Assembly (NCBI GenBank): GCA_017959485.1
Contig: JAGDAM010000390.1
Location: 1 to 7,550, forward strand
DNA: 7,550 nucleotides
Source: Clostridia bacterium
GTDB lineage: Bacteria; Bacillota_A; Clostridia; Oscillospirales; CAG-272
Direction: 5' to 3'
Shown here: in pieces, positions 1,427 through 6,695 of the stretch
Layout: each line of letters starts with the position of its first letter
Position numbering within the stretch: the stretch's first letter is position 1
Position numbers and translations under genes: made by a program
Notes under the pieces: model-generated
Told to the model about the DNA's origin: nothing
The model's database searches: none
What the model saw: the letters and a program-made list of their open reading frames with translations, nothing else

Positions 1427-2623
1427 ATGGATTATTCCGAAATAGTATCAGAGAGGGCATATTCCCTTCAGCCGTCGGGCATACGGAAATATTTTGACAT
1501 GCTCGCCGGAAGGAAGGACGTCATCGGGCTGACCGTCGGCCAGCCCGATTTCGACACGCCCTGGCATATAGTCAACGCGGGAATCGAAAGTCTTCGCCGC
1601 GGAAAAACCTACTATACCGGCAACGCCGGAATGGCGGAGCTCAGACGCGAAACCGCTGCATATCTTAACCGCCGCTTTTCCGTGCCCGCTTCCGAAGACG
1701 AGATCATAATTACCGTAGGCGGATCCGAGGCGATCGATCTTGCCTTTCGCGCAATGCTCAATCCGGGCGACGAGGTAATCATCCCTCAGCCCTGCTTTGT
1801 CTGCTACGGGCCGCTTGTAAGTATGGCGGACGGTGTCCCCGTCTATATCAGGACGCGTGAAGCCGACTCCTTCAAGCTTACTCCCGAAGCGCTTGAAGCG
1901 GCCGTCACTCCGAAGACCAAGCTGCTTGTACTTCCCTATCCCGCAAACCCGACCGGCGCTATCATGACTCGGGAGGAGCTTCTTCCGATAGCCGAAATCT
2001 GCCGCAGGCACGGCATATTCGTCCTTTCCGACGAAATTTACGCCGAGCTGAACTTCAACGGCAGGCGTCACTGTTCAATCTCCTCGCTTGAAGGAATGAA
2101 GGAAAGAACTATCGTCGTCAGCGGTTTTTCGAAGGCGTACGCCATGACCGGATGGCGCATAGGATACTCCTGCGCTCCGGCGGAAATCACAAAACAGATG
2201 CTGAAGATTCATCAGTACGGAATCATGTGCGCGTCGACAACGTCGCAGTACGCGGCGCTTGAGGCGCTGAGAGAGGGCGACGGGGATATCGCCTTTATGG
2301 CTTCGGAGTACGACCGACGCCGCAGAATGATTACCGACGGGCTCCGTTCGCTGGGCATTCCCTGCTTCGAACCCGAGGGAGCTTTTTATATTTTCCCGAA
2401 CGTAGGCGTTTTCGGTCTTTCAAGCGAAGAGTTCTGCTCAAGACTGCTGAACGAAAGCGGAGTTGCAATCATTCCCGGCACCGCCTTCGGCGAATGCGGA
2501 GAGGGATTTGCGCGAATATCCTACGCCTACTCAATCGATCACATACTGAAAGCGCTCGACGGAATAGGACAGTTCCTCCGTTCGGAGAAACTGACCGCCG
2601 CCGGAGCACAAACTGAAAAATGA
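1427..2623 (+). CDS. Class I/II PLP-dependent aminotransferase
   Basis: This 398-residue cytosolic fold-type I enzyme moves an amino group between an amino acid and a 2-oxo acid using pyridoxal phosphate. Landmarks are in the expected order: GLTVGQPDFDTP near 34-45, a YTGNAGMAELR segment near 63-73, NPTG with N174, SDEIY with D202 and Y205, and SKAYAMTGWR with the PLP-binding lysine K236 and phosphate-binding R244. The carboxylate-binding arginine is R363 in FARISYAYS. These fit the aspartate/aromatic/alanine aminotransferase subgroup (PatA/AspC-like); substrate is not resolved. Length is normal and nothing is missing. It follows the Lrp-type gene by 4 nt without a clear Shine-Dalgarno sequence, so its translation is probably coupled to the regulator. 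Its TGA overlaps the start of the next gene (ATGA). Confidence 0.93.
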   Translation: MDYSEIVSERAYSLQPSGIRKYFDMLAGRKDVIGLTVGQPDFDTPWHIVNAGIESLRRGKTYYTGNAGMAELRRETAAYLNRRFSVPASEDEIIITVGGSEAIDLAFRAMLNPGDEVIIPQPCFVCYGPLVSMADGVPVYIRTREADSFKLTPEALEAAVTPKTKLLVLPYPANPTGAIMTREELLPIAEICRRHGIFVLSDEIYAELNFNGRRHCSISSLEGMKERTIVVSGFSKAYAMTGWRIGYSCAPAEITKQMLKIHQYGIMCASTTSQYAALEALREGDGDIAFMASEYDRRRRMITDGLRSLGIPCFEPEGAFYIFPNVGVFGLSSEEFCSRLLNESGVAIIPGTAFGECGEGFARISYAYSIDHILKALDGIGQFLRSEKLTAAGAQTEK

Positions 2624-4695
2624 AACAGAGAACTTTTATCAGAAGTTTTACCGCTTCCCTCGCGACGCTTCTTCTAATGATGATCTGTTCCTGCGGCAAT
2701 ACCGCGATACCCGCGCCCGAATCATCCGAGCCCGGGACTTCGGCTTCCGAGGCGTCGTCCCCGGAACTGCGGGAGCCGCAGACCGTCACGGTACCGGCAT
2801 CCGAACTCGGTCTTGAACCGTTTTATATCCTTCCCGACGAAACCGGGACGGTCGGAGCCGCGGCGGACGAAAACGGCAATATCGTTATTACTTCCGAAAA
2901 ACCCGGAAAGACGGTAATTACGGTAAAGAACGTTTACGCGGAAGAGGCATATATTAACGCGGAAGTCACCGACTCGCTGGAGCTTACCTGCACCGCGGTA
3001 CCCTTCGTCCCCGGAAAATCTCTGAATGCGGTGACCGAGGGAGCGAGAAAGAACTCGGATATTACGTCGGTTCTTCAAAAATGCATCGACCGGATGAGAG
3101 CGGAAGGCGGAGGAACGGTATACCTTCCTTCCGGAAGCTACAAACTGTCTTCAATCACCATGAGGCCCGGTGTCACGCTCCGGCTCGCTGGATTCCCGCG
3201 CAAGGCAACCGACGGATACCTTGGGCAGACCGCGTCAGACGCAGCCAAGGGCGTCTTTGCGGTAATAACGACGACCGGAAGTTCGAAAAACAGCATATTC
3301 ATCTACAACGTCAACCTGCCTCAGTCATACTGCACTTCGGGCTGCTCCGATTTCAGGGTCAGCGGAGGTCTCTGGGACTGCCAGTCGAAGATGAAATGGT
3401 CGGCGACCGCCTGCGGCTCGAACATAGTGTTCGAGAACGCGGTAATCAAGGATATACCGAACAACCACGCGATGCAGATAGACGGTTGCTCCGACTTTAC
3501 CGTACGTAACATAGTTTTCGCCGGATACAACTTCCCGACCGACGGTACGCTGACCCGCGAGACGATTCAGCTTGAGCCGACGACTCCGGGCGCCATCACC
3601 GGCGACCACGCGAATTCGCCGATCCTCTGCGACAGCGGAGATTATCACTCCTGCAGCAACGTCTCGGTTATCGGCTGCTATTTCGGAAAGTCGGACAAGA
3701 CCGGACCGCAGCTGGTAGCCGTCGGCCATCACAGCGCCACCGGATCGCTCGTCTGCGACGGATTCCGATTCGAGGGAAACCGCGTCGAAAACCCGCTTTA
3801 CTGCGGACTTCATCTGCCGAACTACGTAAACGTGGTGATAAAGGACAACGAGTTTATCTCGGACAACCCCTATTCGACCGCGTCGCTCGGCGACGACTCG
3901 GCGCTGATTTCGCTTTACGGATTTACAGGCAACAACACCTTCACGATAGACGGCAAAACGGTTTATCACTCCTTCGGGTACGAGCATCCGGGAACTCAGA
4001 ATTTCACGATTACCGACAACACGTTCACGCTTGGAGGCAAAACTCCACTGCGCGCGGTATACATCTGCGGAGCATCTCCGGACAACAAAAACTTCGCGAC
4101 GTATACCGTGAACTCGTCGCAATACCGCGTGGAACAGTACCCGGGGCCGCTCTTTTCGCTCAACGGGTTTGTCCTTCACCGAAATATTGCCGCGAACATC
4201 ACCTTCTCGGACAACAAAATCTCGGTCACGTCCCAGCCGGGCAATGTCACCGACTTCGTATATCTCAAAAATATTCTCGGCTTCTTCTGCGAAGGCAATG
4301 AAATCGACGTCGCGGTCGGAGTGTCCATCCGCGCCAGCGCGTTCGGAATCAAGGGCTTCTACGCCTATTCTTCCAGCGTCATCACCGACGCGGACGTCAT
4401 GAACCGGCGCTCGGTGACGGTAACGCCGGGTGCCTCAGCGAAGTTTTACCTTTCGACTCCCGACGGGGAGCAGAAATTCCTCGGCTGCAAAGCCGAGTGT
4501 ACGCTGACTTTCGAGCGGTCGGGAAGCGGAACGCTGACGTTCACGACCGACAAAAAAGGCAATCTGACGCTGAACGTCCTGCCGGATCCCGGATGGAAAT
4601 ACGCCGGGATCTACGACGCGGACGGAAATCCGGTCAATCTCGGAAAAGCGATTTCCGTCAACAAAACGATCTACGTTAAGTTCGTGAAAGAATAA
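2620..4695 (+). CDS. Secreted beta-helix lipoprotein (pectate-lyase-like)
   Basis: This 691-residue protein begins with a signal peptide and lipobox ICSC, so C25 is the probable lipidated cysteine and the protein is held on the outer face of the membrane. A Ser/Glu/Pro-rich linker (about 28-55) and a bacterial Ig-like domain (about 57-118) follow. A pectate-lyase-3-type cap comes next, with an acidic/hydrophobic helix and GGGTVYLPSGSYKL (near 165), leading into a right-handed parallel beta-helix to about 590. Coil turns recur as FEGN, IKDN, ITDN, FSDN and CEGN. Conserved-looking polar clusters are HAMQID (283-288), ETIQLEP (314-320) and GHHS (369-372), which could line a carbohydrate-binding or lyase/hydrolase cleft. 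Residues 598-691 form a beta-rich domain like the divergent InlB B-repeats. Polysaccharide binding or cleavage is inferred. The ATG overlaps the aminotransferase stop. The nearest Shine-Dalgarno-like GGAG is 13 bases upstream, so translation is probably coupled. Confidence 0.88.
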   Translation: MKQRTFIRSFTASLATLLLMMICSCGNTAIPAPESSEPGTSASEASSPELREPQTVTVPASELGLEPFYILPDETGTVGAAADENGNIVITSEKPGKTVITVKNVYAEEAYINAEVTDSLELTCTAVPFVPGKSLNAVTEGARKNSDITSVLQKCIDRMRAEGGGTVYLPSGSYKLSSITMRPGVTLRLAGFPRKATDGYLGQTASDAAKGVFAVITTTGSSKNSIFIYNVNLPQSYCTSGCSDFRVSGGLWDCQSKMKWSATACGSNIVFENAVIKDIPNNHAMQIDGCSDFTVRNIVFAGYNFPTDGTLTRETIQLEPTTPGAITGDHANSPILCDSGDYHSCSNVSVIGCYFGKSDKTGPQLVAVGHHSATGSLVCDGFRFEGNRVENPLYCGLHLPNYVNVVIKDNEFISDNPYSTASLGDDSALISLYGFTGNNTFTIDGKTVYHSFGYEHPGTQNFTITDNTFTLGGKTPLRAVYICGASPDNKNFATYTVNSSQYRVEQYPGPLFSLNGFVLHRNIAANITFSDNKISVTSQPGNVTDFVYLKNILGFFCEGNEIDVAVGVSIRASAFGIKGFYAYSSSVITDADVMNRRSVTVTPGASAKFYLSTPDGEQKFLGCKAECTLTFERSGSGTLTFTTDKKGNLTLNVLPDPGWKYAGIYDADGNPVNLGKAISVNKTIYVKFVKE

Positions 4696-4700
4696 ATAAA

Positions 4701-4748
4701 CGGGCTGAAAGAGTCGCGGCGACTTTTTCAGCCCGATGTTTTTATTTT
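4701..4748. terminator. Strong bidirectional Rho-independent terminator
   Basis: Arms 4701-4717 and 4719-4735 are complementary over 17 positions with one G-U pair, so the working loop is about 3-5 nt around CGG. For the rightward lipoprotein operon, TTTTT-A-TTTT (4739-4748) follows closely. For the leftward gene ending at 4742, the complement of AATAAATAAA (4691-4700) gives a U-rich tract. It separates two convergent operons, and its rightward T-tract overlaps the stop codon of the leftward gene. Confidence 0.92.
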
Positions 4749-5692
4749 AACCTGAACCTTAACAGCGCTTCCCTGTCCTTCTCGTCCGCGTAATCTATTC
4801 CTACACGCGACAGTTCTTCGATACCGACGGCTGACACGTTGGAGTCCTCAAACCAGAGACGGTCGGAAAGCACCGCGTCGGATTTGTTCTCGGAGATATC
4901 GATACCAAGCTTTTTTGTAACCCGTCCCGGGCCGTCCGCTCCATCAATGCCGCGGATCAGTACCGCCTGTGCGTCGCCTTTAATTCCGGTAACAATATTC
5001 AGCATATAATGTATCCCGTAGCAGAGATAGATATATACCGTTCCTCCCTTGTCGAACATCGGACGGTTGCGGTCGGTCATACCGCGGCTGGCGTGGGACG
5101 CAGTGTCGTTTTCGCCGAAGTAGGCCTCGGTCTCGGTGACGCAAAAGCGCGCGACGTTTCCGTCCTCAAGCTTTACGGCAATAATTCTTCCGATCAGATC
5201 TCTAGCAACGGTATCCGCCGGACGTTCAAAAAAGTCTCTTCCGAGCCGGCGCGGGCGCTTCCGGCCGCGAATCGACCTGAAAGCTCTCTCAAGCGTCCGA
5301 GAGGCTCGCAGAAGGACGTCCGGGTTCCCGGTGCGTTCATATTCCGGCTCCCGTGGATCGCGTTCTCCGGTAATCTGCGCGGCGTATACGACGCGTTCGA
5401 TACGCGCCTGCGCAATCGCGGCGCGGCACATCGGGCAGGGTTCAAGCGACACATACATACGGCAGCCGTCAAGCCGCCAGTTACCGAGCCGGGCCGCGGC
5501 CTCGCGTATGGCGACGATCTCGGCGTGTGCGGTCGGGTCGGCGTCACGCTCGCGCCTGTTGACTCCAGTTCCGATAACGGCACCGTCTTTTACAACTACC
5601 GCGCCGACCGGTATCTCACCTTCCGTGAACGATTCTTCGGAAAGACGCACGGCAAGATCCGCGTACTCGTCGCCGTTTTGTTTTTTATCCAT
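4742..5692 (-). CDS. tadA/mpg: TadA-type adenosine deaminase fused to AAG/MPG-type DNA glycosylase
   Basis: One 316-residue cytosolic polypeptide holds two enzymes. Residues 1 to about 143 are a TadA-type deaminase, whose family converts the wobble adenosine of tRNA-Arg(ACG) to inosine. It shows IPVGAVVV, N45, the HAE site H56/E58 and the zinc cysteines C86 and C89 in PCPMC, almost the same numbering as E. coli TadA. From about 147, beginning RRLGRDFF, it is a complete alkyladenine (3-methyladenine) DNA glycosylase. Equivalents of human AAG E125, Y127, H136, Y159, N169 and R182 appear as E189, Y191, H200, Y222, N232 and R247. No in-frame ATG, GTG or TTG lies between codons 104 and 204, so the glycosylase cannot easily start alone. 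The TadA segment after VVY lacks the usual DxKxGAxGS stretch. The start is 3 nt after the CPBP protease stop, without a clear Shine-Dalgarno sequence, suggesting coupling. Both assignments are firm; joint function is not known. Confidence 0.92.
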
Positions 5693-5695
5693 AGT

Positions 5696-6679
5696 CTAAA
5701 ACCCGCCCAGCAGAAGATATAAGATATTCACAAGCGAACTCGATACGGTCAGGGCGACGAACACAACGAGCGTCGGACGGATCATATTTCTGCCGTAATC
5801 ATTTACCGGAAGATACTCGGGTTCGGTATCCTCGGGGACGCGGTGAAACCTGTGCCGCTTCAAATAAACGACGAAAAACACCGAGCAGGCCAGTCCTCCC
5901 GCCATCAAAACGATATCGGTCAGAACGGACGGAACCCCGCCGAAAACGCCCGACGCAGCGCCGATTCCGCCGAGCGACATCGCGGAGAGGAGGTTGTTGC
6001 AAAAATGAATCAGCGTTCCGGGCCAGATCGAACGGTAGTAAACGTAAACCGCGCCCAGAATCAGTCCCGCGCAGAAGGTGTGAAGGAACTTGTGAAAACT
6101 TCCGTGCATCATCGAAAAGGTAAAAGCCGAAAGAAAGATCGCGCCGGTCCTGCCGAAAGGCAGAAGGTTCGAAAGAAGGCAGCCGCGGAAGAACAGTTCC
6201 TCGAATACCGCGGGGATAACGGCGGTCGATATCAGCTCGAGAACCATAACGACCGGTATCGAAGACAGGTGCTCCGTTTCCGCGTATCCGAACGGGAGAA
6301 AGGAAATAATCTCGAAATTGAAATAAGACACCGCCGTATTGATTCCGACCGCTGCGGGGATCAGAAGAAAGAGCCCCGGATCGGCGGCGACGCCGAGATA
6401 AGGAGGGGTGCGCTCGGTCTTGCCCATCGCGATCCGGAATACAACGAGCGGAAGGGTCATGCAGAGTATGTATACCGCGCTTTCGCAGAGAGCGGCGACG
6501 ATCTCGGCGGTTGTGCCGTCAAAACCGGGCTCCGAATAGCTAAGCAGCACGGTCGGGAGTCCGTAAAGAGTATTAAACAAAAAGAACTGGGCGATCAGCG
6601 AGATGCCTGCCGCCGTTACCGTTCTGCGAAAACGGGTCTCGTTCGAAACCATGCCGGTGTCGGATATTTCACGGAACAT
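5696..6679 (-). CDS. CPBP-family intramembrane metalloprotease
   Basis: This polytopic membrane protein of 327 residues has about eight hydrophobic segments and the CPBP (Abi/CAAX protease) signature. Motif 1 is EELFFRG (E160, E161, R165), motif 2 is FSMMH (H192), and the last motif is IHFCNN (H225, N229). The glutamates and histidines are the expected metal-binding and catalytic residues. Bacterial members have been linked to prenyl-peptide or bacteriocin processing and self-immunity, but no substrate is evident here. ATG at 6679 is chosen because GGCGG lies nine bases upstream. A TTG at 6688 would add three residues but sits only three bases from AGAGG. The deaminase-glycosylase gene follows 3 nt after the TAG stop, so the two form an operon. 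About 50 C-terminal residues contain an extra hydrophobic hairpin. Confidence 0.87.
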   Translation of the reverse strand: MFREISDTGMVSNETRFRRTVTAAGISLIAQFFLFNTLYGLPTVLLSYSEPGFDGTTAEIVAALCESAVYILCMTLPLVVFRIAMGKTERTPPYLGVAADPGLFLLIPAAVGINTAVSYFNFEIISFLPFGYAETEHLSSIPVVMVLELISTAVIPAVFEELFFRGCLLSNLLPFGRTGAIFLSAFTFSMMHGSFHKFLHTFCAGLILGAVYVYYRSIWPGTLIHFCNNLLSAMSLGGIGAASGVFGGVPSVLTDIVLMAGGLACSVFFVVYLKRHRFHRVPEDTEPEYLPVNDYGRNMIRPTLVVFVALTVSSSLVNILYLLLGGF

Positions 6680-6695
6680 CGAATACAACCGCCTC

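Follow-up and report, generated by a model that had tools for sequence, protein, structure and literature searches.

A deaminase and a glycosylase on one chain

Why should an enzyme of the TadA family, which makes inosine in tRNA, be joined to one of the AAG/MPG type, whose bacterial members remove hypoxanthine? The question is raised by a single open reading frame (ORF) in a 7,550-nt stretch of Clostridia bacterium DNA (contig JAGDAM010000390.1), the whole of which is called the window here, and in which a preliminary description, made from the letters alone, saw a maker and a remover of the same base. The features of this ORF are as follows.

4742..5692, minus strand: TadA-MPG fusion ORF of 316 aa, a single chain whose junction is also found in relatives
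5267..5683, minus strand: TadA-type deaminase domain, residues about 4-142, from Pfam, model and fold match, with H56, E58, C86 and C89
4745..5257, minus strand: AAG/MPG glycosylase domain, residues about 146-316, with E189, Y191, H200, Y222, N232 and R247
5324..5377, minus strand: residues 106-123, rebuilt and shortened relative to loop L5, helix alpha4 and loop L6 of TadA, from alignment and model

The ORF is confirmed to encode a TadA-fold zinc deaminase and an AAG-fold glycosylase on one chain. The two halves follow one another in one uninterrupted frame with almost no linker, as the preliminary description had it, and the same junction occurs in the database cluster P0001 and in dozens of further relatives. 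The deaminase half carries the zinc motifs HAE (H56, E58) and PCxxC (C86, C89) and agrees with TadA in both fold and sequence profile; its known relative is bacterial TadA, the tRNA adenosine-34 deaminase (PDB 1wwr, 2b3j, 1z3a). The glycosylase half scores 149.3 bits against PF02245 (cut-off 27) and 145.9 bits against the 3mg subfamily TIGR00567 (cut-off 116.35). Alignment to human AAG sets its six listed residues against the active-site set of that enzyme, which we take to be E125, Y127, H136, Y159, N169 and R182, and every catalytic residue named at first sight is present in both halves. The known relative here is the AAG/MPG alkyladenine DNA glycosylase (PDB 3uby, 1f6o); in contrast to human AAG, the window half has neither the N-terminal extension nor the insertion and is carried as the C-terminal half of a deaminase. 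Routes of hypoxanthine repair are given in PMC8438529 (as excerpted).

Family size and distribution

The preliminary description suggested looking for the same domain order in protein databases, and this order proved to recur in a family of three lineages. Three protein searches, each giving its best 120 matches so that cluster counts are lower bounds, placed TadA and MPG on one chain in at least 76 protein clusters. The first search was topped by at least 52 clusters with both Pfam domains (P0001-P0052), a profile search added P0121-P0130 and P0133, and a search seeded with distant fusions added P0167-P0178 and a 217-aa partial, P0180, which is placed in none of the three lineages. The main lineage, to which the window belongs, includes at least 60 clusters, P0040 among them. 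Lineage g2 includes at least ten (P0129, P0130, P0167, P0169-P0171, P0173, P0175-P0177), and lineage g3 at least five (P0133, P0168, P0172, P0174, P0178) together with the fusion of genome G058 (locus L089). Main-lineage rows, P0001 apart, are 45-61% identical to the window protein, and in 73 of 73 rows both halves keep their catalytic residues. By sequence, then, the fusion is a member of an old, recurrent family. The source names of its clusters are metagenome-assembled genomes of Eubacteriales and Clostridia, few in kind. Cluster P0051 already carries the Joint Genome Institute name 'tRNA(Arg) A34 adenosine deaminase TadA/3-methyladenine DNA glycosylase Mpg'. A literature search, judged by title and abstract, found no description of a natural TadA-glycosylase fusion.

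Within sampled genomes the fusion is rare. Of 391 genomes sampled from the class to which G008 belongs, one, G058 (lineage g3), has a full-length copy. With profile A2, no main-lineage fusion was found in genome sets of 9, 391, 51, 345, 295, 9, 4, 35, 95, 1 and 400, which overlap (the set of 295 is largely the set of 345), at thresholds mostly of E 1e-70 to 1e-80. A contig scan with patterns that match every TadA returned at least 80 loci, all in the deaminase half and with no fusion among the matches listed; two of these reach residues 156-160. No fusion covering 80% of the query was present among the 45 phage records or the 248 plasmid records matched, and in 20 viral-contig loci the TadA half stands by itself. 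A phage, plasmid or viral origin was rejected on the single-domain matches seen in these sources.

The rebuilt deaminase of the window's branch

Main-lineage fusions in general keep the S. aureus residues D103/D104 and the L5/alpha4/L6 segment of bacterial TadA, whereas the window has Q106/I107 in place of D103/D104 (E. coli D108) and a short coil for the segment. Thus P0014, of the main lineage, can be aligned with the TadAs of E. coli, S. aureus and B. subtilis along 148-153 residues, Asp108 among them, while the matches of the window protein stop at residue 105-106. A GALGGLF-type segment is absent from all seven rows of the window's branch (the window, P0001, P0002, P0040, P0053, P0054 and P0139). 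At the Asp108 position this branch has Ile in six rows and Ser in one; elsewhere all 57 other main-lineage rows and all 6 g3 rows have Asp, and all 10 g2 rows have Asn. Among 182 stand-alone TadAs it is D in 96, N in 77, E in 8 and S in 1, with neither Ile nor a gap in any. P0001 has the window's own letters throughout the Asp108/loop-alpha4 stretch. The predicted model has no helix between the strands at 100-105 and 117-120.

According to the available part of PMC10586758, Asp104/108 of TadA contacts the ribose 2'-OH of U33, the stretch holds two substrate-binding loops, and alpha4 belongs to the dimer interface. The anticodon-loop contacts that follow strand 4 (E. coli D108 and loops L5/L6) and helix alpha4 are accordingly absent from the window protein and present in its main-lineage relatives. 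Residues for the target base (V29, N45, H56, A57) and for the 3' neighbour (G25, R47, E48) are kept, and those for the 5' neighbour are not, by alignment to the residue list in the accessible portion of PMC10354150. The loss of the loop-alpha4 segment and of Asp108 makes deamination of tRNA-Arg by the window copy doubtful; 'maker and remover of the same base' stands as a fair account of the two domain families, but is not supported as it stands for this copy, whose deaminase half is probably no longer an ordinary tRNA deaminase. The path from the window to P0002 measures 1.26 changes per site in TadA vs 0.64 in MPG, and the TadA tree gives the branch a stem of 0.83. On these tree lengths the deaminase half of this branch has changed faster than the glycosylase half.

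Four sister clusters and a possible separate TadA

In four sister clusters (P0040, P0053, P0054 and P0139) at most two of the six named glycosylase residues are kept, with the halves still fused and the deaminase motif retained; the glycosylase half is shortened at its C-terminus and is still predicted to take the AAG fold. P0132, which is close to the intact P0121, has a glycosylase half that reads as if frameshifted, from real decay or from sequencing error.

From L83 onwards P0001 matches the window protein at every position (234 of 234 residues). Its first 71 residues are identical at only 31 positions to the window protein and are 73% and 69% identical to the stand-alone TadAs of genomes G388 and G370, which pair in the TadA tree (support 99, locus L107 outside). 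P0001 is, from this pattern, probably an assembly join of the fusion gene with a stand-alone tadA at a shared LEPCPMC stretch, and it gives a hint that a separate TadA exists in the same organism or in a neighbour in the sample. CGC and CGT make up 70 of the 142 Arg codons in the seven main ORFs of the window, so some gene of the organism would be expected to supply TadA activity.

Number of fusion origins

TadA comes first in all three lineages. The TadA tree places g2 next to Lachnospiraceae TadAs and g3 in another position; in the MPG tree the main lineage is a clade (support 98/94). Approximately unbiased (AU) tests (model LG+G4) were run with constraints covering main with g2, main with g3, and all three together; the lineages were named after the first tree viewed, and the p-values are thus indicative. 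For TadA, main and g2 as one clade is rejected (p 0.007), as are all three together (p 0.0023), whereas main with g3 is not (p 0.13), nor is the main lineage as one clade (p 0.49), though the TadA tree does not establish that clade. For MPG, tested after removal of 19 of 98 rows (near-duplicates, three long-branch rows including P0040, and also P0060), main with g3 is rejected (p 1.4e-10), as are all three (p 2.5e-5), whereas main with g2 is not (p 0.19). P0060 is an MPG-only protein that was nested inside the main lineage in an earlier MPG tree. Each pairing of the main lineage with another is rejected by one half, which argues for at least two origins; the trees indicate that the fusion arose at least twice, probably three times. 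Part of this signal could also be produced by a single fusion in which one half was later replaced.

The two genes do not look like habitual neighbours. In 8 of 8 genomes showing both, tadA and mpg are apart (233 kb on one contig in one genome; on different contigs in seven, where adjacency across a break is possible), and repeated fusion is therefore unlike simple read-through of adjacent genes. Both genes have other partners. MPG is joined to MGMT (P0075), to GNAT (P0137, and P0142 by precomputed Pfam) and to a CxxCxxCC domain (P0077). TadA is joined to GNAT (L073) and to an alpha/beta hydrolase (L009), both Pfam-confirmed, and by eye to an alpha/beta hydrolase at L018, L024, L040, L051, L070 and L077, the hydrolase fusions being in Burkholderiales-type loci. 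Ten of 74 TadA ORFs from the contig-scan loci exceed 300 aa, including one confirmed TadA-GNAT, one confirmed TadA-hydrolase and six hydrolase-like by eye. The MGMT-MPG, GNAT-MPG, TadA-GNAT and TadA-hydrolase proteins share one gene with the window fusion and differ in the other. P0075 puts two alkylation-repair enzymes on one chain, MGMT being an O6-methylguanine repair enzyme. P0181, an M56 peptidase followed by an MPG that starts mid-domain and closely resembles P0133, looks chimeric.

Explanations for the fusion

In most relatives the N-terminal half would be a complete tRNA-A34 deaminase and the C-terminal half a complete hypoxanthine/alkylpurine DNA glycosylase, each at its family job. 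In the window's branch the two halves appear to have parted ways, and a slightly better than even chance is given to the window protein being a stable two-enzyme chain, with the glycosylase working as its family does and the deaminase either off the tRNA anticodon or drifting. The glycosylase half is intact and the likelier of the two to be active still; it would excise hypoxanthine, 3-methyladenine and similar DNA bases to leave an abasic site. The deaminase half, with its zinc site, adenine pocket and 3'-neighbour contacts kept and its 5'-neighbour contacts and helix alpha4 gone, has probably moved from the anticodon to another adenine- or purine-containing substrate; alternatively it may be drifting, with the essential tRNA work left to a separate TadA. 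Three points weigh on the other side. The shortened alpha4 region might still permit tRNA binding; the four decayed sisters indicate that part of the branch can do without the glycosylase; and the hint of a separate TadA comes from one chimeric 3-kb contig that possibly joins two organisms.

For the family as a whole, a serious possibility, though short of probable, is that two housekeeping enzymes with fusion-tolerant ends came under one promoter and onto one chain without having a substrate in common. The other partners of both genes, the long TadA ORFs with GNAT or hydrolase-type partners, and the rarity of the full-length fusion among the 391 genomes of the class are consistent with such a neutral or expression-level event. 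However, the main lineage is old and its catalytic residues are unchanged in both halves, the same partner and order recur in three lineages, and the list of MPG partners comes from searches seeded with the fusion.

A coupled safeguard, in which the tethered AAG removes the hypoxanthine left by harmful stray TadA deamination of DNA adenine, is unlikely. The same two enzymes occur in the same order in three lineages for which a single origin is rejected by either half, and the separation of tadA and mpg in eight of eight genomes means that their joining is not mere stop loss between neighbours. In the part of PMC10354150 available, D108N alone brings TadA to DNA activity and an animal ADAT2 with Asn there edits DNA; the same source part has E. 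coli TadA not deaminating DNA A-to-I unless Asp108 is changed. Against the safeguard, the decayed sisters keep the deaminase motif and lose the glycosylase, the reverse of what it predicts, and both genes are fusion-prone. Nor is the Asn108 of g2 tied to the fusion. Among the matches listed, 72 of 73 stand-alone TadAs nearest g2 share it, as do L063, L088, L104 and L105, and Asn108 as a fusion-tied sign of DNA activity was ruled out, Asn being the rule in these proteins. The safeguard is ranked below the neutral reading for the whole family because both genes take other partners and the pair persists without a working glycosylase. The Asn of these stand-alone TadAs of the g2/Lachnospiraceae type is the substitution by which E. 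coli TadA acquired activity on DNA.

Somewhat less likely still is that the pair in the window's branch is a redundant copy being lost, as may be suggested by the long TadA branch, the decayed glycosylase of the four sisters, the seemingly frameshifted P0132 beside an intact relative, and the hint of a separate TadA. An adenine-to-abasic-site enzyme is an improbable reading: the deaminase half, released from the tRNA anticodon by losing Asp108 and alpha4, would turn adenine of single-stranded DNA or of some other nucleic acid into hypoxanthine, which the attached AAG would excise at once. A function in phage defence or on mobile elements is very improbable: a PADLOC match to dCTP deaminase (E 1.7e-7, residues 56-103) is short, weak and expected of any enzyme with the zinc motif, the phage, plasmid and viral records gave no fusion as described above, and the window shows no phage or defence context, the fusion gene having an aminotransferase, a CPBP protease and an ABC transporter as neighbours. 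That the fusion is an assembly artefact, or a chance event in a single genome, is ruled out by the same junction in dozens of independent relatives; all that speaks for it is the chimeric look of the P0001 N-end.

Surroundings of the fusion gene

5696..6688, minus strand: CPBP-type intramembrane protease gene, directly upstream of the fusion ORF with a 3-nt gap
4701..4735, no strand assigned: 16-pair hairpin followed by a T-run, a candidate terminator between convergent genes

By its position the protease gene is the probable operon partner of the fusion gene, and the two may be co-transcribed. The hairpin is, from its sequence, likely a terminator, though sites of this kind, taken together, do not stand out from shuffled sequence in the window (4 found vs 3.4 expected). 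On the plus strand, 2620-4695 encodes a 691-aa protein with a lipoprotein-like signal and a weak pectate-lyase/rhamnogalacturonase match, and 937-2623 holds an Lrp-type regulator gene with the aminotransferase gene directly after it, a pair common to 8 of 8 Clostridia-type regions compared and hence no guide to the taxon. The closest match to the aminotransferase is in G325 (62%), with 58-59% in G388 and G370.

Comparison with engineered editors and significance

The engineered base editors AYBE, ACBE and rAKBE also place a TadA-type deaminase and MPG on one chain (PMC11224198, in its available part), and AYBE is, by analogy of architecture, the closest analogue of the natural fusion. The A-to-Y and A-to-K editors are man-made from a Cas9 nickase and the evolved TadA8e, whereas the natural protein has no targeting part and is not known to deaminate DNA.

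TadA and AAG/MPG are the pair that engineers joined to obtain adenine transversion editors, and nature has made the same join on at least two occasions. Even a neutral fusion would provide a clear case of two unlinked genes fusing repeatedly. If the halves are coupled, TadA would damage DNA enough for selection to notice. If the window deaminase has left tRNA, it would offer editor design a natural enzyme of the TadA fold whose substrate loop has been rebuilt; and if the adenine-to-abasic reading were true, the fusion would be a natural counterpart of the AYBE editors and contain a natural bacterial DNA adenine deaminase.
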